A DNA stretch of 64,000 bases from Stutzerimonas stutzeri (GTDB lineage: Bacteria; Pseudomonadota; Gammaproteobacteria; Pseudomonadales; Pseudomonadaceae): the NCBI RefSeq assembly GCF_024448695.1, contig NZ_JAMOHY010000001.1, forward strand, positions 62,001 through 126,000, written 5' to 3'. A model generated the notes under the pieces. It was not told the origin of the DNA. It searched no databases and saw nothing but the letters and a program-made list of their open reading frames with translations. The position numbers and the translations under genes were made by a program. Below are positions 23,912 through 34,867 of this stretch, in pieces; position 1 is the stretch's first letter, and each line of letters starts with the position of its first letter.

Positions 23912-24604
23912 ATGTCTGCCTCTTTTGTCCGTCCAGTCACCTTAATTGCCTGCCTGGCCTGCCTCCCGGCAATCGCCGACGATCAGCGCTACAACCAGAT
24001 ATCCCTGCGCGCCGAAGCCACCAGCGAAGTGGCCCACGACCGCATGCACGTCACGCTCTACAGCGAGGCCCAGCACCAGGACCCGGCGCAGCTCGCCGCG
24101 CAGACCACGCAGACCATCAACAAGGCGCTGCAACGCGCCCGCCAGACTGGTGAAGTGGTTGTCAGCCAGGGCAGCCGCAGCAGCTATCCGGTCTACGAGG
24201 AAAAGGGCCAGCAGATCACTGCCTGGCGCGAACGTGCCGAGCTTCGCCTTGAGAGCAGTGACTTTGCCGCTCTCTCCAAGCTCACCGGTGAGCTGATGCA
24301 GGACCTGAAGATGGGCAGCATGCACTTCAGTGTCTCCGACGCGATCCGCAAGCAGAACGAAGATGCCCTGCTCAAGGACGCCATTACTGCCTTTCGCGCC
24401 AGGGCACAGCTGACCACCGAAGCACTGGGTGGCAGCGACTACCGGATCGTCAACCTCAACCTGGGCAGCGGTGGCGGCTACCAGCCGGTGATGCGCAGCA
24501 TGGCGATGAAGAACATGGATGCCATGGCAACCCCGGAAATCGAGGCCGGCACTCGCCAGGTCAGCGTCAATGCCGACGGCATCATCGAAGTGCTGATGCC
24601 GTAA
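23912..24604 (+). CDS. SIMPL-domain (DUF541) periplasmic protein
   Basis: The 230-residue protein has a signal peptide (MSASFVRPVTLIACLACLPA, cleavage near IADDQ) and one SIMPL/DUF541 domain. The function of the family is poorly known; some members affect outer-membrane integrity or stress resistance. An AGGAG ribosome site precedes the ATG. The gene is divergent from roxS; in PAO1 I recall a similar gene beside roxSR. Confidence 0.9.
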   Translation: MSASFVRPVTLIACLACLPAIADDQRYNQISLRAEATSEVAHDRMHVTLYSEAQHQDPAQLAAQTTQTINKALQRARQTGEVVVSQGSRSSYPVYEEKGQQITAWRERAELRLESSDFAALSKLTGELMQDLKMGSMHFSVSDAIRKQNEDALLKDAITAFRARAQLTTEALGGSDYRIVNLNLGSGGGYQPVMRSMAMKNMDAMATPEIEAGTRQVSVNADGIIEVLMP

Positions 24605-24841
24605 CAACCCACAAGGGACGGCCTGACCTGAGACCAATTCGCGGCATGTGATGCGCTCGCGGTCACTCTGCAAGCGCATCAATAGATGCCGGCGTGCCAA
24701 TTGTTACGCTGTCGCCGAGCTCTCGAAAAATACTCGTAACAAATTGAAACAATTGCTCAGACCTTTGAAAATAGGGCTTTCCAGCCTGGTCGAGCAAGCA
24801 AATAGCCATGGTGGTAAATCTTTTGTAAGGAATTCCTATTC

Positions 24842-24881
24842 GCGAATAACTATCATGCGCACCGGAATGATTCTCAACAAC
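24842..24881. promoter_or_regulatory. Candidate Fur-binding region before TonB receptor
   Basis: Two overlapping matches to the 19-bp Fur consensus lie 14-53 bp before the receptor ATG. GCGAATAACTATCATGCGC matches about 11 of 19 positions, and the bottom-strand GTTGTTGAGAATCATTCCG about 12 of 19, with the classic GAGAATCATT core. I counted these by hand. The location over an AT-rich promoter region fits iron repression of the receptor. Confidence 0.5.
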
Positions 24882-24894
24882 AAAGGATCCGCGC

Positions 24895-27027
24895 ATGTAC
24901 GTCCCCTTCACCCGCTCGGCACTGGCTACTGCTCTTGTCGGTTGCGGCCTGAGCTTGTCAGTTTTTGCTGAAACAACCCCGGTAAACCTGGACGCGATGG
25001 TCGTCAGCGCCTCCGGTTTTGAACAGAAGATCACCGATGCTCCGGCAAGTATCAGTGTAATTACTGGTGAAGAGCTAAAACTTAAGCGAGTCGCCAGCCT
25101 GGCCGACGCTTTGGCTGATGTCGAAGGCGTGGACGTTAACGACAACGCCGGTAAGACCGGCGGCCTGAATATCAGCATCCGCGGCATGGGTAGCGCCTAT
25201 ACGCTCATCCTTATAGACGGACGTCGTCAGAACGCAGCAGGGGACGTGACACCGAACGGTTTCGGCGAAACCAAGACTAGCTTCATGCCACCCATTTCGG
25301 CCATCGAACGTATCGAAGTCATCCGTGGCCCAATGTCCACGCTCTACGGCTCCGATGCCATGGGCGGCGTTATCAACATCATCACCAAGAAGGTCGGCAA
25401 GGAATGGGGGGGCTCGGTTAGCGCCGAGACAACCTTGCAGGAGCACCAAGAATACGGTGACAGCCGTGCCACCGAAGTCTACCTTAGCGGCCCTCTTATC
25501 GAGGACAAGCTTGGCTTGACGTTGCGCGGCAAATATTTCGAGCGTGACGACTCAAATATCGAGTACGACAACTCAGCGACAGGCGAAACCGTGGCGCCCG
25601 GTATGGGTGCCAATCCGGTCGGGTCGGACATTTGGAACGCAGGCGGTCGTCTAACCTTTACGCCTAATGCTGACCACGACATTAGCCTAGACTACGAACA
25701 GAACAAGCAGTGGTACGACAATAGCGAAGGACAGATGGGCACCCTGGGCGCCGCGGGAGGCTACGAGGAAGAGCAGCGCTACAACCGCGAACAGTACAGC
25801 CTCTCCCATACCGGTCGTTTCAGCTTTGGTACGCTGGATTCCAGCCTAATGCGCAGCACCACCGAAACCAAGGGCCGCCTGATCCCCGCACTGCTCAACA
25901 CGCCGGGCATCGTCGCTGGCGGGCCGCGAAAGCTGGAATCGGAAAACACCATCTTCGATACCAAGTTGATGATGCCTATCGGTGACCACAACCTCACAGT
26001 CGGGGGCCAGTACTGGGAAGCCGAGATGCTCGACGGCGTGGTGCTGGATAAATTCGAGCACCGCATGAAATCGGTATTCGTAGAGAACGAATGGCGCATG
26101 CTCGACAGCCTTGCTCTGACTGTCGGTGTTCGTCGTGACGATCACGACAAGTTTGGCAGCCACACCAGTCCACGCGCCTACCTCGTCTGGAATGCCAGCG
26201 ACAATTGGACACTTAAAGGTGGTGTCAGCGAAGGCTTCAAGGCGCCGGACCTTGAGGACCTGGCTGACGGTATCAACGGCTTTGGCCGTCAGGGCCGCAT
26301 GCCTCTGATCGGCAACCCAGACTTGCAGCCGGAAACCAGCCGTAGCAGTGAGTTCGGCGTCTATTTTGACACTCTGGAAAACTTCAACGCCAATGTGACG
26401 CTGTTTCACAACAAGTTCGAAGACAAGCTATCCACCACCACAGTGGACAACTGCCGTGTAAATAACAGTGCAAGCTGCGTGGATATCGGGCCGGGCTGGG
26501 AAGCCGCAGCGCCGACCTTCTCTAAGGCGGTCAACGTCGATGAAGCCGTCACCAAGGGTGTCGAAATCGCAGGTCGCTGGCGATTCGCTCCTGCCTGGAG
26601 CCTTAGCGCCAACTACACGTACACTGATACCGAGCAGAAGAGTGGCGTCAACAAGGGTTGGCCGCTCAACAGCACACCCGAGCACATGGTCAACGCCAAG
26701 CTTGACTGGCAGGCAACCGACCGTCTGAGCACTTGGCTGCGTGGCGAGTACCGCAGCGAGCGCTTCCGCCGCACCGGCGTAGCACGCGACTACGGCTACG
26801 ATGCTTTTGGTGACTACAAGGCCTACACCCTGTTCCACCTCGGCGGCAGCTACAGGGTTAGCGATAATCTCGACGTCAGCGCGACCATCTACAACCTGTT
26901 CGACAAGGACTTCATCGATTACCAGCCCTACGCCAGCAACGCTGCAGGCCTTGTTGCCTACGGTAACGAATACAACAACAACCAGGAACGTCGTCGCCTC
27001 TGGCTCTCCGCTACCTACAACTTCTAA
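24895..27027 (+). CDS. TonB-dependent outer-membrane receptor (FepA/CirA-like)
   Basis: The 710-residue protein has a signal peptide (to about residue 25), a plug domain with LADALADVEGVDVND, IRGMGSAYTLILIDGRR and IERIEVIRGPMSTLYGSDAM (about residues 35-165) and a 22-strand barrel ending in the aromatic C-terminus WLSATYNF. A candidate TonB box is LDAMVVSA. Two cysteines in one extracellular loop (DNCRVNNSASC) probably form a disulphide, as in CirA/FepA-type catecholate receptors. The substrate is unproven. Early codon use (CTA, CTT, AGT, GTA, ATT) looks less GC-biased than its neighbours, suggesting separate ancestry. A Fur-like region lies upstream. Confidence 0.93.
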   Translation: MYVPFTRSALATALVGCGLSLSVFAETTPVNLDAMVVSASGFEQKITDAPASISVITGEELKLKRVASLADALADVEGVDVNDNAGKTGGLNISIRGMGSAYTLILIDGRRQNAAGDVTPNGFGETKTSFMPPISAIERIEVIRGPMSTLYGSDAMGGVINIITKKVGKEWGGSVSAETTLQEHQEYGDSRATEVYLSGPLIEDKLGLTLRGKYFERDDSNIEYDNSATGETVAPGMGANPVGSDIWNAGGRLTFTPNADHDISLDYEQNKQWYDNSEGQMGTLGAAGGYEEEQRYNREQYSLSHTGRFSFGTLDSSLMRSTTETKGRLIPALLNTPGIVAGGPRKLESENTIFDTKLMMPIGDHNLTVGGQYWEAEMLDGVVLDKFEHRMKSVFVENEWRMLDSLALTVGVRRDDHDKFGSHTSPRAYLVWNASDNWTLKGGVSEGFKAPDLEDLADGINGFGRQGRMPLIGNPDLQPETSRSSEFGVYFDTLENFNANVTLFHNKFEDKLSTTTVDNCRVNNSASCVDIGPGWEAAAPTFSKAVNVDEAVTKGVEIAGRWRFAPAWSLSANYTYTDTEQKSGVNKGWPLNSTPEHMVNAKLDWQATDRLSTWLRGEYRSERFRRTGVARDYGYDAFGDYKAYTLFHLGGSYRVSDNLDVSATIYNLFDKDFIDYQPYASNAAGLVAYGNEYNNNQERRRLWLSATYNF

Positions 27028-27035
27028 GCACTAGT

Positions 27036-27060
27036 ATCGGCCCGCATCATGCGGGCCGAT
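27036..27060 (+). terminator. Hairpin after TonB receptor
   Basis: A perfect stem ATCGGCCCGC / GCGGGCCGAT with a short loop lies 9 nt beyond the receptor stop, followed by the AT-rich GCAAATGTATAG. It probably terminates the receptor mRNA, which would put the following genes under partial or separate control. Confidence 0.7.
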
Positions 27061-27151
27061 GCAAATGTATAGTGTTGGTAAATCATTCGCATTTGTGCAC
27101 CGATTGTTTCTAGAATCCTTCCTCAGGATTTCGCTGCATTAAGGCTTCTCG

Positions 27152-27751
27152 ATGCTCCCCATCCCCTGGCTCGGCACTCTGCGCCAATGGCACTGGATCA
27201 GCTCTGCGCTGTGCCTGGTTGGCATGCTGCTGTTCGCGGTGACAGGCATCACGCTCAACCATGCGGCGCAGATCGAGGCCAGCCCGCAAGTCATCGCACG
27301 CACGGCCTCATTGCCGGAATCCCTGCAGCAACGCTTGTTGGCCGATCAGCCTGTCGAGGGCCTGCCGAACGAACTGCAGGCCTGGCTGGAAAGCGCGCTG
27401 AACATCGACCTAACGAGCCGCGAAGCGGAATGGAGTGACGGCGAGTTGTATGTCGCCCTGCCCCGTCCCGGTGGTGATGCCTGGCTGAGTCTGGTGCTGG
27501 AAACCGGCGAGCTCGAATATGAATCCACCGACCGTGGCTGGGTTTCCTACCTCAACGACCTGCACAAGGGCCGTAATACCGGAACGGCCTGGAGCTGGTT
27601 CATCGATATCTTCGCCGCAGCCTGCGTGGTCTTCAGCCTGACCGGGCTGCTGCTGTTGCAACGCCACGCGGCGGGACGCCCGACAACCTGGCCACTGGTG
27701 GGGCTGGGGCTGGTCATTCCGCTGCTGCTGGCGCTGCTTTTCATTCATTAA
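27152..27751 (+). CDS. PepSY-associated membrane protein
   Basis: A 199-residue protein with an N-terminal membrane helix ([21 protein letters not shown]), a periplasmic PepSY-like domain of about 100 residues and two C-terminal helices. Conserved histidines flank the helices (WHW, LNHA, LHKGR, LLQRH), as in the PepSY_TM family to which siderophore reductases such as FoxB and PiuB belong. It looks like a short PepSY_TM unit, separate from the flavoprotein encoded three genes on. It is followed after 9 nt by the DUF2271 gene. Confidence 0.85.
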
Positions 27752-27760
27752 GGACTCCTC

Positions 27761-28270
27761 ATGCCCAAACGCTTGCTGCTGCCCCTCGCCCTGCTCAGCG
27801 CTCCCCTGCTGGCGGCGGACATGGACGTGACCGTGGAAATCCCACGCCTGCAGGTGGCCGAATACCACCGCCCCTATGTGGCGATCTGGCTGGAAAAACC
27901 GGACCAGAGCCATGCCGCCGATCTGGCAGTGTGGTACGACCTCAAATTGAAGGACAAGGAAGGCGAGAAATGGCTCAAGGACCTGCGCCAGTGGTGGCGT
28001 CGCAGCGGTCGCAGCCTGGAAATGCCGGTGGACGGCCTCAGCGCAGCGACCCGCGCAGTGGGCACTCACAGCCTGAAATTCAGCGATAGCCGGACGCCCC
28101 TGCAAGCTCTGCCCGCTGGCGAATACCGCCTGGTAGTGGAAGCGGTGCGCGAAGTCGGTGGCCGCGAGTTGCTGCGCCTGCCGTTCAGCTGGCCGCCGCA
28201 GCAGACCGAGACCCAAAGCATTCAAGGCGAAAGCGAGCTGGGCGCCATCACACTCACGCTCACCCCCTGA
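27761..28270 (+). CDS. DUF2271 periplasmic protein
   Basis: The 169-residue protein has a signal peptide (MPKRLLLPLALLSAPLLAAD) and matches the DUF2271 family, with EIPRLQVAEYHRPYVAIWLE and WLKDLRQWWRRSGR. No enzymatic motif is evident. Members are typically encoded beside PepSY-type membrane proteins and TonB receptors, so a role in periplasmic iron handling is inferred from context only. Confidence 0.85.
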   Translation: MPKRLLLPLALLSAPLLAADMDVTVEIPRLQVAEYHRPYVAIWLEKPDQSHAADLAVWYDLKLKDKEGEKWLKDLRQWWRRSGRSLEMPVDGLSAATRAVGTHSLKFSDSRTPLQALPAGEYRLVVEAVREVGGRELLRLPFSWPPQQTETQSIQGESELGAITLTLTP

Positions 28271-28410
28271 CAGACCGTTGAAAAACTACCTGCGTTGGCA
28301 ATACGGCGTTAAAAACAGGCTCGGACTGCTCATTTAGATCACTAAACTCCGCGTCCTCGCCTGTTTTTGCCTTGTCTTGCCTGCCTCGCCTACGTTTTTC
28401 AATCGGCCTG
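28271..28410. repeat. Palindromic repeat element, complete two-arm copy
   Basis: The left arm CAGACCGTTGAAAAACTACC reappears in inverted form at the right end as GTTTTTCAATCGGCCTG. Internal AAAAACAGGC/GCCTGTTTTT also pairs, giving a long imperfect hairpin of about 140 bp. It fills the gap between DUF2271 and DUF4198. No transposase is inside, so it is a MITE-like or REP-like non-autonomous element. Single-arm copies occur at 14637, 39053 and 61788. Confidence 0.7.
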
Positions 28411-28432
28411 TTTAACAATAAGGAAGCCCACC

Positions 28433-29308
28433 ATGAACCCCATGATCAAATGGACCACCCTGGCCCTCGCCATCTGCCTGCCGCTTTCCGCCCAGGCGCA
28501 CCGAGCCTGGATGCTGCCCTCAGCCACCGTTCTTTCCGGAGACGAGCCCTGGATCACCGTGGACGCCGCCGTTTCCAACGACCTGTTCTACTTCGAGCAT
28601 GTGCCGCTGCGCCTTCAGGGCATCGGCGATGCAGCCCAGGCACCCGCTGGCGGCCCGCCCGGCATGCGCGCACGCCCGACCCCGGCACTGCAGATCGTCG
28701 CCCCGGACGGCTCGCATGCGAGCGCCCAGAATGGCAGCATCGGCCGCTATCGCAGCACCTTCGATGTACAGCTCAGCCAGAAAGGCACCTACAAGCTGGC
28801 CGTCGCCAACAGCGGCCTGTTCGCCAGCTGGAAGGAAAAAGGCGAGCTGCGCCGCTGGATGGGCACCGCAGAGAATTTCGCCAAGGACGTGCCGGCCAAC
28901 GCCGAAGATCTCAAGATCAGCCAGACCAGCAGCCGCATGGAAGTATTCGTCACCTCCGGCAACCCCACCGAAAGCGTGCTCAAGCCCACCGGCCAGGGCC
29001 TTGAACTGGCGCCAGTGACCCACCCCAACGACCTGTTCGCCGGGGAAGCCGCCGAGTTCGTCTTCCTTCTGGACGGCAAGCCCGCTGCCGACGTGGAGAT
29101 CAGCGTGATACCCGGCGGCAACCGCTACCGCGATCAGTTGGGCGAGATCAATGCCAGCACCGATGCTCAGGGCAAGGTCAGCATCACCTGGCCGCAGGCC
29201 GGTATGTACTGGCTGGAAGCCGAGCTGAAGACCGACAAGGGCGTGGCCAAGCCAGCCACCGAGCGGCGCGCCAGCTACAGCGCCACGCTGGAAGTCCTGG
29301 CCCCCTGA
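28433..29308 (+). CDS. DUF4198 periplasmic protein
   Basis: A 291-residue exported protein (signal peptide MNPMIKWTTLALAICLPLSA, cleavage AQAHRAW) of the DUF4198 family, whose mature N-terminus HRAWMLPS is typical. The family has two Ig-like beta domains and relatives linked to nickel/cobalt or iron transport loci. The ATG has AGGA 9 nt upstream; the longer in-frame start at 28367 lies in the repeat element and was rejected. Context with DUF2271 and a reductase suggests a role in metal uptake, by inference. Confidence 0.88.
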   Translation: MNPMIKWTTLALAICLPLSAQAHRAWMLPSATVLSGDEPWITVDAAVSNDLFYFEHVPLRLQGIGDAAQAPAGGPPGMRARPTPALQIVAPDGSHASAQNGSIGRYRSTFDVQLSQKGTYKLAVANSGLFASWKEKGELRRWMGTAENFAKDVPANAEDLKISQTSSRMEVFVTSGNPTESVLKPTGQGLELAPVTHPNDLFAGEAAEFVFLLDGKPAADVEISVIPGGNRYRDQLGEINASTDAQGKVSITWPQAGMYWLEAELKTDKGVAKPATERRASYSATLEVLAP

Positions 29309-29411
29309 GCCATTCGGGCTGGACCGGCCAGGTCCAGCCCGAATGCCCGGCCAGGCATACGCACAGCGCTGCACACTATGCCGACTCCCCATCAAGCCGA
29401 GACACCCTGAC

Positions 29412-30971
29412 GTGCTTCGCTCCTTCCCGTCTGCACGCTACGCCCCCCTGCTGGCCTGCCTGACACTCGCGGTCCTGCTGCTGTACTGGCAACCGGCACG
29501 AGAGCTATCGGCCCTGCTGGTGGTTGTCGCCTACCTCGTCTTCTGCCTGCATATCCGGGCAAGGCATCGCCGCACCCACAACCTTTCTGCCGGCGACAGC
29601 AGCGCATGGCTGATCGCCTATGCCAGCCAGGGCGGCCAGGCGCAAGAGCTTGCCGAGCGCAGCGGCGAACAGCTGCGCCATGCGGGCGTCGCGGTGGAAA
29701 TCCAGCCATTGAATGCGCTGGACCGGAACGCCCTGCCCCGACGGCAGCGGGTGCTGTTTATCGTCAGTACCTATGGCGAGGGCGAGGCGCCGGACAATGC
29801 GGCCCGCTTCGAGCGACAGCTGCTGGCAGTCGACTGCGATCTGTCCAATGTCGAGTTTGCCGTGCTTGCCTTGGGCGACCGTCAGTACCGACACTTCTGC
29901 GGTTTCGGCCGGCGACTCGACACCCGGTTGCGCGAACTGGGCGCCCAACCGCTGTTCGACCGGCTGGACGTTGACCGCGCCGAGGCCGGTTCGCTGCGCC
30001 ATTGGCAGCACCAGCTGGGGCATATCAGCGGGCACAGCGATTTCAGCGACTGGCAGCCGGCGCCCTATCAGCCATGGCAACTGGACAGTCGTGAACGGCT
30101 GAACCCCGGCAGTCTCGGCGCTCCAATCTTTCAACTGCGCCTTCGCCCCGAGGCCGGGATGCCGCACTGGCGCGCAGGCGACATCGCCGAGGTCGGCCCG
30201 CAGCATTCACTGGCAGCCATGACGGAAGTGCTGGAGCAACTGGGGTTCGCCCCACACCAGCTATTGGAGAACGAGCAAACCCTGGCCGGCGCCCTCGCCT
30301 CGCGACGCCTTCCCCCTGAGCTTGAACAGCTGCGAGGCTGCACTATCGAAGCGCTGCTGGCCCTGCCGCAACTGCCCCATCGCGAATACTCCATCGCCTC
30401 GATTCCCGCCGAAGGCGAGGTACAGCTACTGGTACGCGAAGCCCGGCACGCGAATGGACAACCCGGTATCGGTTCAGGCTGGCTCTGTCAGCATGCGGCG
30501 ATTGGCGACAGGCTGGACCTGCGCATTCGCAGCAACCCGGGTTTTCACGGGCCGGCGCCACAGGTGCCGATGATCCTGATCGGCAACGGCACGGGGCTGG
30601 CCGGATTGCGCGCGCACCTGCGCGAACGTCTCGGTACAGCGTCACGCAACTGGCTGCTGTTTGGCGAGCGCAACGCCGCCCACGACACCCTGTTGCATGA
30701 CGAGCTGCAGGGCTGGTTGCAAGCAGGGCATTTGCAGCGGCTCGATCTGGCCTTTTCCCGCGACCAGGCGCAGAAAATCTACGTCCAGCACCTGCTGCGC
30801 GATGCCGCGGACGAACTGCGTCGCTGGGTTGCCGATGGCGCGGCCATCTACATCTGCGGCAGCCTCGAAGGCATGGGCCGCGAGGTCCAGCAGATACTGG
30901 TCGGTCTGCTGGGCGAGGCACAGCTCGATGAGCTGAGCGAGCAGGGACGCTATCGGCGCGACCTGTACTGA
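29412..30971 (+). CDS. Membrane-anchored flavodoxin/FNR-type reductase (sulfite reductase alpha-like)
   Basis: The protein has one or two N-terminal membrane helices (about residues 10-50), a flavodoxin domain (AYASQGGQAQELAER, STYGEGEAPDNA, VLALGDRQYRHFCGFG), and an FAD/NADPH reductase domain with REYSIASIP, ILIGNGTGLAGLRAHL and YICGSLEGMGREV, ending RRDLY. These are the motifs of the CPR/CysJ family. The start is uncertain: GTG at 29412 gives 519 residues, ATG at 29343 gives 542; neither has a strong ribosome site. With the upstream PepSY membrane protein it resembles a split version of PiuB/FoxB-type siderophore reductases. Confidence 0.85.
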   Translation: MLRSFPSARYAPLLACLTLAVLLLYWQPARELSALLVVVAYLVFCLHIRARHRRTHNLSAGDSSAWLIAYASQGGQAQELAERSGEQLRHAGVAVEIQPLNALDRNALPRRQRVLFIVSTYGEGEAPDNAARFERQLLAVDCDLSNVEFAVLALGDRQYRHFCGFGRRLDTRLRELGAQPLFDRLDVDRAEAGSLRHWQHQLGHISGHSDFSDWQPAPYQPWQLDSRERLNPGSLGAPIFQLRLRPEAGMPHWRAGDIAEVGPQHSLAAMTEVLEQLGFAPHQLLENEQTLAGALASRRLPPELEQLRGCTIEALLALPQLPHREYSIASIPAEGEVQLLVREARHANGQPGIGSGWLCQHAAIGDRLDLRIRSNPGFHGPAPQVPMILIGNGTGLAGLRAHLRERLGTASRNWLLFGERNAAHDTLLHDELQGWLQAGHLQRLDLAFSRDQAQKIYVQHLLRDAADELRRWVADGAAIYICGSLEGMGREVQQILVGLLGEAQLDELSEQGRYRRDLY

Positions 30972-30985
30972 CCACGACGCCGGAA

Positions 30986-31080
30986 AAGCTTCGCCCCGAG
31001 GGCAGAGCTCCCACAAAAAAGCCAGCCAGCCGCACCAAACCGTGAGAGCCGCGCCCTCGCGGCGAAAGGCGGGCCAACGG
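30986..31080. repeat. REP-like half copy
   Basis: AGAGCTCCCACAAAAAA and the downstream CCCTCGCGGCGAAAGG resemble REP half-cores, degenerate, between the reductase gene and the speC terminator. The boundaries are approximate. Confidence 0.4.
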
Positions 31081-31100
31081 CTGCCCGAGTCTTAAACAAG

Positions 31101-31123
31101 AACGCCGCGAAAATCGCGGCGTT
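31101..31123 (-). terminator. speC terminator
   Basis: A perfect stem AACGCCGCGA / TCGCGGCGTT with a 3-nt loop lies 17 nt beyond the speC stop, followed on the minus strand by CTTGTTTAAG. It probably also blocks read-through from the convergent reductase gene. Confidence 0.75.
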
Positions 31124-31140
31124 CGGTCCTGCATCGGCGC

Positions 31141-32304
31141 TTAGAGGTAATAAGCCTTCAGCGGCGGGAAGCCGTTGAATTCCACCGCGCTGTAGCTGGT
31201 GGTGTAGGCACCGGTGGAGAGCCAGTACATGCGGTCGCCGATGGCCAGGTTCAGCGGCAGGCCGTACTTGTAGTTCTCATACATGATGTCGGCGCTGTCA
31301 CAGGTCGGGCCGGCGATGACCACTTCTTCCATCTCGCCCTTCTTCTCGGTCCAGATCGGGAACTTGATGGCTTCACCCATGGTTTCGATCAGGCCGGAGA
31401 ACATGCCGACGTCGGTGTATACCCAACGCTCGACGGCAGTACGGGACTTGCGCGCCACCAGCACCACTTCGCTGACCAGGATGCCGGCGTTGGCGATCAG
31501 CGAGCGGCCCGGCTCAAGAATGATTTCCGGCAGCTCGTCGCCGAAGTCTTCCTTGAGGAAGCGGATGATTTCCTCGGCGTAGGTTTCCAGGCTGTTGGTG
31601 CGGGTGATGTAGTTGGCCGGGAAGCCGCCACCCATGTTGATCATCTTCAGCTCGATGCCGTCTTCTTCCTTCAGGCGCTCGAAGATCACCTTGACCTTGG
31701 CGATAGCGGCGTCCCACACGGAAATATCGCGCTGCTGCGAACCGACGTGGAAGGAGATGCCATAGGGCTCGAGCTTCAGCTGGCGTGCCAGGATCAGCAG
31801 GTCCATGGCCATATCGGTCTGGCAACCGAACTTGCGCGACAGCGGCCAGTCAGCGGTGGTCGAGCCTTCGGTGAGGATGCGCACATAGACTTTCGAGCCC
31901 GGTGCCGCCTTGGCGATGTTGCGCAGGTCGGCTTCCGAGTCGGTGGCGAACATGCGCACGCCCTTCTCGTAGAAGTAGCGGATGTCCTTGGCTTTCTTGA
32001 TGGTGTTGCCGTAGCTGATGCGCTCGGGGCCGACGCCACGGGACATCACCTTGTCCAGCTCGTAGATCGAGGCAATGTCGAAGCTCGAACCCTTGTCCTT
32101 GAGCAGGTCGATGATCTCGACCGCTGGGTTGGCCTTGACCGCGTAATAGACCTTGGCGAAGTCAAATCCGGCACGCAGATCGTCATAGGCCTTGTCGATG
32201 GTGGCAGTGTCGATGACCACGAAAGGGGTTTCGTGCTGGTCGGCAAACGCCTTCATTTTCTGGAAGGTGGGACGGGAATAATAATCTTCGATCTTGATCG
32301 ACAT
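31141..32304 (-). CDS. speC: Ornithine decarboxylase (fold III, alanine-racemase type)
   Basis: The 387-residue enzyme converts ornithine to putrescine in polyamine synthesis. The PLP lysine is in VYYAVKANP, the phosphate-binding region in INMGGGFPANYI, and the catalytic cysteine in VIAGPTCDSAD. It matches Pseudomonas SpeC closely in length and sequence. The start MSIKIEDYYS has GGAG 6 nt upstream, better than an ATG four codons earlier. It stands alone, divergent from the FecA-like receptor. Confidence 0.95.
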   Translation of the reverse strand: MSIKIEDYYSRPTFQKMKAFADQHETPFVVIDTATIDKAYDDLRAGFDFAKVYYAVKANPAVEIIDLLKDKGSSFDIASIYELDKVMSRGVGPERISYGNTIKKAKDIRYFYEKGVRMFATDSEADLRNIAKAAPGSKVYVRILTEGSTTADWPLSRKFGCQTDMAMDLLILARQLKLEPYGISFHVGSQQRDISVWDAAIAKVKVIFERLKEEDGIELKMINMGGGFPANYITRTNSLETYAEEIIRFLKEDFGDELPEIILEPGRSLIANAGILVSEVVLVARKSRTAVERWVYTDVGMFSGLIETMGEAIKFPIWTEKKGEMEEVVIAGPTCDSADIMYENYKYGLPLNLAIGDRMYWLSTGAYTTSYSAVEFNGFPPLKAYYL

Positions 32305-32579
32305 GCATGGCTCCAAATCGGGAAAACGTAAAGTCGGATTAGGGATGGAAAGAACGCCTGATCAGTTTCCCCACTTTGGTTCGCCTACTTCCCAAGGCTG
32401 TGTCGCCGAGAACCCCTTGAGGTCTCTCGTCGTCAGTACTTGAGCCGGATGGATCGTTGCCAGCATGGACGTTCGGGCGCGAACCATAAGACCAAGCGCC
32501 ACAGGGGTCAAGAGTCGATTTCCACCTGTTTACCACAGATGGAAGGCATCGATGTTTCAGCGGGGCTGCGCGCTCCCTT

Positions 32580-32617: not shown

Positions 32618-32740
32618 CGGGCATTCACCAACGAAGCCCAACAAAAGTATTAAGTCAACGGAGCCAACGGTCAGTTCCCGGCCCTAGCCGGCTGATCGAC
32701 CATGGGTCGCGAAAAGCTGCCCACCAAGGACATAACAATT

Positions 32741-34867
32741 ATGAGCTCCCGCCCTTACCCGACGCTTCTTCAGCTGTCTCTGATGATGTGCATGCCTGCC
32801 ATTGCACTGGCCCAACAGGACCCTGCCCCCCTGGAACTGCCCAGCCTGGACGTGCGCAGCATGGTTCCGGAAAGCATTCAGGGAACACCCGGCGCGGCCA
32901 ACCTGCTGTCAAGGGAAACCGTCGACACCTACAAGCCCTATACCCTGCATGACGCCTTCGACTTCGTCCCCGGCGTGCGCACCATCGATGACGATGTGCT
33001 CGGCCTGCGCTCGGGCATCGGCGTGCGCGGCGCGCCACCGCGGCGCTCACGCAAGGTGCTGCTGCTGGAGGACGGCACCCCCATCAACAACAGCGCCTAT
33101 CTCGATTCCGGCGCCCACTACACGCCGCCGCTGCAACGCCTGGAACAGGTCGAGGTGCTCAAGGGCGCCGGGCAGATCATTCATGGTCCGCTGAACAATC
33201 ACGGCATCATCAACTTCCGCAACCTGCGGCCAACTGCCGAGCCACAGACCCGTGTTGAACTGGCCGCTGGCAACCAGAGTACGCGCCAGAGCCACATCAG
33301 CCACCGCCGCACGGAAGGCCCGCTGGGCATGGTCTTCAGCTACACCGGCAAAGAGGCCGACGGCACCTTCGACGTGGAAGAACACGAGTTCGACGACTTT
33401 TACGGCGGCTTCGAGCTGCAGCTCAACGACAGCCACCAGCTCGCCGCCTCGGCCACCTATTTTCGCGAACGCAGCCAGGGCTACGATGAAAGCAACCTCT
33501 CGCTGCAGCAGTACCGCGAAGACCCACGCGGCAAGAAGCGCCTGGACGAAGGCCGCGAGTACAACAACATCTCGGTGGACTACTACAAGCTTGACCTGAC
33601 CCACAACTACCAGATCAGCGACGACGTTCGCCTGTCCTCGAAAGTCTTCGCCACCGAACTGGATCGCCCGCGCTTCCAGACCCGCGGCACCGCACCGGAC
33701 GAAGGCGGCGTGATGGAAGGTCGTGATCGCCGTTACCACACCCTTGGCCTGGACAGCCGGCTGGATATCGGCGGCATTTCCGCCCTTGGCCTTGATCATC
33801 GCATCCAGACCGGCATTCGCTACGAGAAGCACCGCTTCGCCGACCGCCGTCCGGTAGGCCGTCCCGGCGAAGCACTCAAGGAAGGCAATCGTGGCGAGGT
33901 CTATGCCCATGCCGGCGAAAACGGCTACACCCGCGATGGCCGTCTGATGACCTACGATGCCGAAGCCATTTCCGCCTTTGCACAGAACACCATCAGCCGC
34001 GGCGACTGGGCCATCACCCCCGGCCTGCGCTTCGAGACGTTCAACCAGTACAACAAGACCAATTTCCGCCCTGGTGACGATGACGAAGGCGTGACCAAGA
34101 AGGACAGCAACAGCCTGCTGCTGCCCGGCATCAGCCTGCTTTACAGCGGCTTCGACAACAGCGAGGTCTACGCCGGCATCCACCGCGGCTATGCCCCGGC
34201 CTCGGCTCGCAGTGATGAATTCCCGCTGACCCCGGAAACCGGCATCAACAGCCAGATCGGCCTGCGCAGCAGCGCCCTCAAGGGTGTCAGCCTCGACATG
34301 GCGCTGTTCTACAACCGCATCGAGGACACCCTGATCCGCAAAGAGGTCGACGAATTCGGTGATGCGCTGTTCGTCAATGCCGCCGACTCACGGGTCTACG
34401 GTCTGGATCTTGGCGCGCGAATCGACTCCTGGGCCTGGTACGACTCACCGCTCAATGCTTTTGCCGAAGTCGCGATGAACTACACCAATGCGAAATTCAG
34501 CAACGGCCCACTCAAGGGCAACGATGTCCCGGAAGTGCCGCGCTACAACGGCAGCCTGACCCTGGGCCTGGAGCACACCGCCGGTTGGCATCTGAGCACC
34601 ACCCTCAGCCACTTTGGCGCTTTTTATACCGATATCGAAAACACCCGACCGATCACCGCCAGCGGCGACGAGGACGATGCCGGGCGCGTGCCCAGCCACA
34701 CCCTGCTCTCGGCACGCGCCAGCTACAAGCTGCCGACACGCCTGGACACCACCCTCTGGATCCAGGGCCGCAACCTGACCGACAAGCTGTACATCGCCGA
34801 TATCCAGGAAGGCATCCGTCCCGGCGCGCCGCGCTCGATTCTGGCGGGCGTGACCTTCAACTTCTGA
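32741..34867 (+). CDS. TonB-dependent receptor, FecA-like
   Basis: The 708-residue outer-membrane receptor has a signal peptide (cleavage near IALAQQ), a plug with LSRETVDTYKPYTLHDAFDF, VRGAPPRRSRKVLLLEDGTP and LEQVEVLKGAGQIIHGPLN, and a barrel ending ILAGVTFNF. The SYNGR-like and NH-INFRNLRP plug features suggest the FecA group, but it lacks an N-terminal signalling domain, so no surface signalling is expected. No sigma/anti-sigma pair or transporter genes are adjacent. The ATG has AGGA 10 nt upstream. Regulation may run through the twin palindromes upstream. Confidence 0.9.
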   Translation: MSSRPYPTLLQLSLMMCMPAIALAQQDPAPLELPSLDVRSMVPESIQGTPGAANLLSRETVDTYKPYTLHDAFDFVPGVRTIDDDVLGLRSGIGVRGAPPRRSRKVLLLEDGTPINNSAYLDSGAHYTPPLQRLEQVEVLKGAGQIIHGPLNNHGIINFRNLRPTAEPQTRVELAAGNQSTRQSHISHRRTEGPLGMVFSYTGKEADGTFDVEEHEFDDFYGGFELQLNDSHQLAASATYFRERSQGYDESNLSLQQYREDPRGKKRLDEGREYNNISVDYYKLDLTHNYQISDDVRLSSKVFATELDRPRFQTRGTAPDEGGVMEGRDRRYHTLGLDSRLDIGGISALGLDHRIQTGIRYEKHRFADRRPVGRPGEALKEGNRGEVYAHAGENGYTRDGRLMTYDAEAISAFAQNTISRGDWAITPGLRFETFNQYNKTNFRPGDDDEGVTKKDSNSLLLPGISLLYSGFDNSEVYAGIHRGYAPASARSDEFPLTPETGINSQIGLRSSALKGVSLDMALFYNRIEDTLIRKEVDEFGDALFVNAADSRVYGLDLGARIDSWAWYDSPLNAFAEVAMNYTNAKFSNGPLKGNDVPEVPRYNGSLTLGLEHTAGWHLSTTLSHFGAFYTDIENTRPITASGDEDDAGRVPSHTLLSARASYKLPTRLDTTLWIQGRNLTDKLYIADIQEGIRPGAPRSILAGVTFNF

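Follow-up and report, generated by a model that had tools for sequence, protein, structure and literature searches.

An apbE-less PepSY-like flavinylation cluster in Stutzerimonas stutzeri, a probable route for periplasmic ferric reduction

Introduction

PepSY-like flavinylation systems, in which a PF03929 or PF16357 protein is clustered with a gene for ApbE, an FMN-binding protein or DUF2271, were counted by Meheust et al. in 2021, who reported 3220 clusters, 2833 with DUF2271 and 1500 with DUF4198, apbE being frequent but not required (PMC8238504). Here, we analyzed a 64,000-nucleotide stretch of the Stutzerimonas stutzeri genome (the window; source genome of 3.70 Mb in 63 contigs), in which five neighboring genes encode a TonB-dependent receptor, a half-size PepSY membrane protein, a DUF2271 protein, a DUF4198 protein and a flavoprotein.

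A described counterpart is the Caulobacter crescentus cluster CC3059-3063 (CCNA_03155-03159), with a PepSY-type protein, DUF2271, DUF4198 and an NADPH sulfite-reductase-type flavoprotein in the same order as in the window. It carries apbE between the DUF4198 and flavoprotein genes, whereas the window lacks apbE and has a TonB receptor gene ahead of the other four. Expression of the Caulobacter genes rises when iron is limiting and when fur is mutated, Fur binding has been verified (PMC3751524), and insertions in the cluster lower fitness in ethylenediaminetetraacetic acid (EDTA) (PMC12004947). In Alteromonas, both PF16357 and ApbE (COG1477) are found fused to DUF2271 (PMC7190382). VciB of Vibrio cholerae (COG3295), likened here by its published description and not by sequence, is a PepSY-like membrane protein reported to promote extracytosolic iron reduction. 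The combination of the five parts is not new; it is a known kind of relay in a lineage-specific variant. Searches of open-licence papers showed no description of the apbE-less variant, the supplementary tables of PMC8238504 not being covered.

An earlier note on the window had read the five genes as an unusual split of a PiuB/FoxB-type reductase whose several parts, encoded behind a Fur-like region, pass electrons from NADPH to ferric siderophores in the periplasm, with DUF2271 and DUF4198 as possible accessory binding or release factors.

Results

Gene content and proposed electron route

The five open reading frames (ORFs) all lie on the forward strand (Table 1), and their Pfam matches, judged against curated cut-offs, were far above them, which bears out the positions and identities given earlier. 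PF16357, PF10029 and PF10670 occur as single copies in the source genome, all three within the cluster. With PF16357 beside PF10029, the locus falls within the definition of a PepSY-like flavinylation cluster, and it shares with such systems the presence of PF16357, DUF2271 and DUF4198 in one cluster. It differs from them in a DUF2271 site, SAAT, that misses the strict motif, in having no clustered apbE and in carrying the NADPH module on a separate protein. On this anatomy and precedent, both of which support the multi-part electron route, we consider it probable that the cluster serves ferric reduction in the periplasm as a PepSY-like flavinylation system, in the form without apbE that is typical of the Pseudomonadaceae.

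In such a relay, the catecholate-type receptor would bring a ferric siderophore, or a breakdown product of one, into the periplasm. NADPH would reduce the flavin adenine dinucleotide (FAD) of the anchored flavoprotein and then its flavin mononucleotide (FMN), as its domains suggest. Electrons would cross the membrane via hemes on conserved histidines of the PepSY protein, probably a homodimer with a FoxB-like core, and would reach an FMN bound covalently to the threonine of the DUF2271 DGLSAAT site, an attachment in print for a homologue. This flavin would reduce Fe(III), the siderophore would release the iron, and DUF4198 may hold or pass on the metal via its N-terminal histidine. The ApbE acting on the DUF2271 site would come from elsewhere in the genome, the enzyme of the nqr operon being the only candidate.

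Table 1. Features of the cluster and its surroundings (positions in the window)
Feature	Position	Strand	Size	Evidence
Fur-like box conserved in relatives, weak in the window; probable Fur operator	24841-24860			Footprint in family promoters
Second weak Fur-like match	24863-24881	-		12 of 19
TonB-dependent receptor, Cir/IrgA/CfrA (catecholate) kind	24895-27027	+	710 aa	PF00593 1.5e-57, PF07715 8.5e-29
Strong hairpin, receptor-PepSY gap	27036-27060			Fold of 27030-27065: -26.2 kcal/mol, z -6.9
Half-size PepSY membrane protein, probably conducting electrons via heme b	27152-27751	+	199 aa	PF16357 3.3e-85, PF03929 3e-9
Periplasmic DUF2271 domain with DGLSAAT site, probably carrying covalent FMN	27761-28270	+	169 aa	PF10029 2.7e-50
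Dispersed inverted-repeat (MITE-like) element between DUF2271 and DUF4198 genes	28268-28415		~140 bp
DUF4198 periplasmic metal-binding beta-sandwich, mature N-terminus predicted His	28433-29308	+		PF10670 7.9e-58
Strong hairpin, DUF4198-flavoprotein gap	29311-29345			15-bp stem; -31.2 kcal/mol, z -7.6
Membrane-anchored NADPH-type diflavin reductase (flavodoxin + FNR)	29343-30971	+		PF00258 1.8e-29, PF00175 1.2e-7

Gene order in relatives

Of 198 family genomes, 60 had a PF16357 match over the cut-off. A fragment (G118) and a fused 786-aa frame (G086) were dropped, and 57 loci (L039-L095) plus the window were used (n = 58). A second, named set held the best 80 of 585 confirmed matches (L096-L175) plus the window (n = 81); genomes overlap between the sets.

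Among the family loci, the order receptor-PepSY-DUF2271-DUF4198-flavoprotein was found in 40 of 58, eight of these with two receptors; the four core genes without a receptor in front accounted for 12 and other orders for six. The commonest order in the named set was PepSY-DUF2271-DUF4198-apbE-flavoprotein (48/81), with the apbE-less order of the window present in 20. In the same set, a receptor of either type lay on the same strand at most 4.5 kb upstream in 22 of 29 apbE-less rows, compared to 7 of 53 apbE rows. A stand-alone PepSY protein with a separate flavoprotein is therefore the rule, and the window represents an apbE-less, receptor-led variant that is typical of Pseudomonadaceae. The survey of gene order and fusions suggested in the earlier note thus showed a conserved order, together with fused homologues of the flavin module, whereas the idea of an unusual split was given up, since separate PepSY and flavoprotein genes are the commonest arrangement and VciB and the Caulobacter cluster are already in print.

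Conservation of the order in relatives indicates that the grouping of the five genes is not due to chance. Closest among the best 80 of 585 matches were Stutzerimonas and Pseudomonas contigs, with at most 84% identity in the PepSY protein. One family locus (L091, genome G051) carries DUF2271 twice, the extra gene following DUF4198; a flavoprotein of the cluster type was not found there.

PepSY membrane protein

Sequences for the structure models (45 rows for PepSY, 37 for DUF4198) were picked from the window and the 80 named loci. The AlphaFold model of the PepSY protein, with a mean predicted local distance difference test (pLDDT) score of 86, has three long helices (residues 5-43, 145-173 and 179-198) and one small alpha/beta, PepSY-like domain between helices 1 and 2. 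H14, H138 and H199 are invariant among the 45 sequences and H37 is conserved in at least 90%; these histidines are putative heme ligands, and the predicted topology would place H14 at the cytosolic end.

FoxB shares with this protein the PepSY transmembrane family and conserved histidines, although the window protein has one PepSY domain and three helices. The Pfam PepSY_TM match supports the kinship, and the model aligned with FoxB (7abw) at Z 5.1 and a root-mean-square deviation of 2.8 over 77 residues, a weak match among unrelated chains of like Z. Solved relatives were not found by sequence, neither by profile nor by a single-sequence search, which gave one chance ribosomal match only. The protein would correspond to about half a FoxB, and a homodimer would rebuild a FoxB-like core.

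Flavoprotein

The closest solved structure to the flavoprotein was SiR-FP (6efv), and the NCBIfam cut-off for CysJ (TIGR01931) was missed, with 257.9 bits vs. 668.15. Its nearest relatives outside the cluster were the C-terminal parts of PepSY_TM-flavodoxin-FNR fusions (47-52% identity over about 460 residues). These are presumably PiuB-like, a name taken from the earlier note. The flavin modules are homologous; in the window, unlike in the fused chain, PepSY_TM and the flavodoxin and FNR parts are on separate ORFs, and the flavin module stands alone on its own anchor. What stands of the proposed link to PiuB is this homology, and what falls is the notion that the split is unusual. We considered whether the split arose by fission of a PiuB-like reductase and did not adopt this view, as a flavin-module tree of 46 rows left the direction undecided: fused sequences form a clade (support 99/98) placed among the split ones, and a grouping of all split sequences was not rejected (p-AU 0.219). 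One locus (L071, genome G159) carries a fused PepSY_TM-flavodoxin-FNR gene and a split cluster a few kb apart.

A heme ligand contributed by the flavoprotein anchor was also rejected: the anchors have no conserved histidine and, by eye, many relatives have one helix instead of two. Since the annotated ATG (29343) lies inside an arm of the adjoining hairpin and the first 20 or so residues read from it are not common to relatives, a GTG at 29412, giving 519 aa, may be the true start.

DUF2271 and the source of ApbE

ApbE-dependent flavinylation of a DUF2271 protein has been demonstrated, and the published motif is [S/T]GA[S/T] (PMC8238504). In the window site, DGLSAAT, the Asp-Gly pair, the serine and the acceptor threonine are kept and the glycine of the motif is replaced by alanine; sister genomes carry SGAT. 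We compared 86 apbE-less with 53 apbE rows, which are not independent, some genomes being counted twice and one L122 row being a partial duplicate. The apbE-less rows read SGAT in 55 cases, SAAT in 24, TSAT in three, SSAT in two and TGAT in two, with Asp-Gly kept and the threonine present in 86 of 86; SAAT occurred in one apbE row. By analogy with the flavinylated homologue, carrying electrons on a bound flavin is a likelier role for DUF2271 than that of an accessory binding or release factor, and we replaced the latter role accordingly. A sequence search for solved relatives of DUF2271 found none. Five apbE-bearing clusters (L115, L119, L135, L145 and L147) have TSPT at the DUF2271 site and offer a natural test of ApbE acceptance.

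No apbE was present among the labelled ORFs of the window or in any of the 57 family loci. ApbE was sought elsewhere in 51 of the 58 genomes with the cluster (the other seven, in most cases fragmentary or incomplete, were excluded) and in 76 of 140 listed genomes without the cluster. It was detected in 51 of 51, 49 of them with exactly one, and in 57 of 76, respectively (Fisher p 2e-5, relatedness ignored). The only ApbE of the source genome adjoins nqrF, in the operon that also holds nqrB and nqrC, and the NqrB of this genome has DGFSGAT, so that borrowing for DUF2271 is possible and consistent with these data; the window DUF2271 possibly receives its covalent flavin from this enzyme.

The SAAT site suggests that flavinylation may be weakened or lost. 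The same relay could then run with an unflavinylated DUF2271 in apbE-less lineages, the PepSY heme reducing the ferric complex directly and DUF2271 acting as a docking or flavin-free partner. FoxB has been described as itself reducing bound ferrisiderophore (PMC13038864), and both the lack of apbE in all family loci and SAAT in place of SGAT, in the window and in the other rows noted above, fit this scheme. However, retention of Asp-Gly and of the acceptor threonine, the prevalence of SGAT in apbE-less rows and the presence of ApbE in every genome tested argue against it, and we regard it as unlikely.

DUF4198 protein

The DUF4198 gene starts at ATG 28433 and not at TTG 28367 of the ORF list. 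In all 37 sequences, including that of the window, the end of the signal peptide is followed by histidine, as judged by pattern and predicted cleavage. The model (pLDDT 87) matched the fold of the Zcp structures 9mhm and 9mhk, whose entry titles name zinc, copper and cobalt, and of nickel-bound 9gcb (IsDUF4198); the beta-sandwich is alike in 9gcb and the Zcp series (9mhi-9mho), and IsDUF4198 also has a mature N-terminal histidine. Two sequence matches were labelled phosphoribosylglycinamide formyltransferase; these entries are titled Zcp and the label was not taken as their identity. No paper on Zcp was found in the open-licence literature. With metal-binding homologues of this kind, the earlier view of DUF4198 as a binding protein is reasonable.

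In IsDUF4198, nickel is held by His1 and His18, and a dissociation constant for nickel of 18 nM is given for a DUF4198 homologue (PMC12537917). By contrast, His1 is the only invariant histidine among the 37 aligned sequences, and mature position 18 of the window protein is Trp by simple counting, not by structural superposition. Invariant Asp45 and Asp51 are near His1 in the sequence. The metal site of the DUF4198 found in iron clusters appears to be changed from that of its nickel-binding relative.

We also weighed whether the cluster serves another metal, such as nickel, zinc or copper. Homologues of DUF4198 bind Ni, Zn, Cu or Co, and PepSY might reduce copper, the role proposed for CrpH, which is a PepSY protein of copper starvation (PMC13038864). 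The Zcp and 9gcb fold matches and the nanomolar nickel affinity point that way, as do two Caulobacter cluster genes among those down in a zur mutant (PMC4176598). Against this stand the lack of a second conserved histidine as in the nickel site, the catecholate-siderophore kind of the receptor, the response of the Caulobacter cluster to Fur and iron (PMC3751524) and the Fur-like footprint in family promoters described below, and we find this explanation improbable.

Receptor and promoter region

The closest solved chain to the receptor was the colicin I receptor Cir (2hdf, 6.9e-106). Every NCBIfam equivalog cut-off tried (CfrA, CirA and IreA-type) was missed, the best score being 614.4 bits vs. 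924. A receptor lies directly 5' of the cluster in 41 of 58 family loci. Beyond a decarboxylase-like gene on the minus strand (31141-32316), the window holds a second TonB receptor of another type (32702-34867; TIGR01783, below cut-off); in many relatives a receptor of this second type is found on the opposite strand 3' of the cluster.

Upstream of the receptor, the segment CGCGAATAACTATCATGCGC of the window (Table 1) aligns with a motif found in 20 of 28 same-family promoters, written AATN[AG][CT]TATCATGC (17 of 28 by a stricter pattern), which sits 44-68 nucleotides upstream of the receptor start as derived from the alignment. In relatives such as L043 this footprint reads ACGAATGATTATCATGCG and is Fur-like. 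The best match of the window to the 19-bp Fur consensus was the second site of Table 1, compared with 10.9 +/- 1.0 in shuffles. Judged from these promoters and by analogy, the cluster is probably under Fur control; the Fur-like region proposed earlier is thus upheld by the common footprint and weakened by the poor copy in the window itself. A sigma-70 scan of 24500-31200 gave promoter-like sites no more numerous than in shuffles.

Hairpins and inserted repeat

Stems of at least 9 bp were found in 22 of 50 receptor-PepSY gaps, in 18 of 57 DUF4198-flavoprotein gaps and in 9 of 52 DUF4198-apbE gaps, as opposed to one of 115 PepSY-DUF2271 and one of 110 DUF2271-DUF4198 gaps. The two stem-poor gaps are the shorter ones, but compared with shuffles they show no excess of stems, whereas the receptor-PepSY gaps and those 3' of DUF4198 do. 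The hairpins after the receptor and DUF4198 are conserved in position and not in sequence, and they may set the dose or stoichiometry of the parts. For Caulobacter, the strongest induction within the cluster is listed for DUF4198, at 44-fold vs. 12-fold for the flavoprotein (PMC3751524).

The repeat between the DUF2271 and DUF4198 genes, which resembles a miniature inverted-repeat transposable element (MITE), has 29 matches in its own genome, ten of which span at least 129 of 148 bases at 83-100%, and folds into a single long hairpin (z -6.2). It is no part of the reduction system.

Discussion

Published proposals for such relays end with Fe(II) import through Feo (PMC13001220). Searched with the FeoB_C profile alone, neither the source genome nor 45 of 51 cluster-bearing genomes, nor nine same-genus genomes without the cluster, gave a match (54 of 60 in total). 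The usual ferrous importer therefore seems to be absent, leaving the released Fe(II) without an obvious way in. A ZIP importer was considered and set aside; the source genome has one Zip-family gene, and no link to the cluster was shown.

The same lack of an importer would suit a relay that, instead of serving iron uptake, discharges electrons to acceptors in the periplasm or outside the cell as a dissimilatory or redox-balancing outlet, and flavinylated carriers do serve respiration elsewhere (PMC8238504). Yet the TonB receptor stands directly in front in most family loci, and the Caulobacter cluster shows Fur repression and EDTA sensitivity (PMC3751524, PMC12004947), which makes an electron outlet very improbable.

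Several findings weigh against ferric reduction by a flavinylation relay, the reading that we prefer. The Fur box of the window is poor, its own copy of the footprint matching the consensus weakly, and SAAT departs from the flavinylation motif, being far more frequent in apbE-less (24/86) than in apbE rows (1/53). ApbE is common in the family regardless of the cluster. In 12 of 58 family loci no receptor precedes the core, and the receptor is therefore not obligatory. A Foldseek search with the PepSY model found no solved relative under 0.001, and FoxB appeared only in a second structure look (VIA), sixth of 50 rows and level with unrelated chains.

A bolder proposal, to which we give a low probability, is that FeoB-less Pseudomonadaceae possess a self-contained ferric-siderophore pathway that borrows the ApbE of the nqr operon, with DUF4198, bearing His1 and no second histidine, carrying iron to an importer other than FeoB. 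If so, a sodium pump and iron uptake would share one flavin-attaching enzyme.

The cluster is ordinary as a discovery. Its apbE-less variant nevertheless allows three questions to be told apart, which is not possible where apbE lies in the cluster: can the ApbE of a respiratory operon act in trans on a carrier for iron uptake, does DUF2271 depend on covalent flavin, given SAAT and SGAT within one genus, and how do cells that lack FeoB take up Fe(II)? The cluster would make a useful system for studying all three, and the predicted metal-binding site of DUF4198 could be tested there in an iron context.

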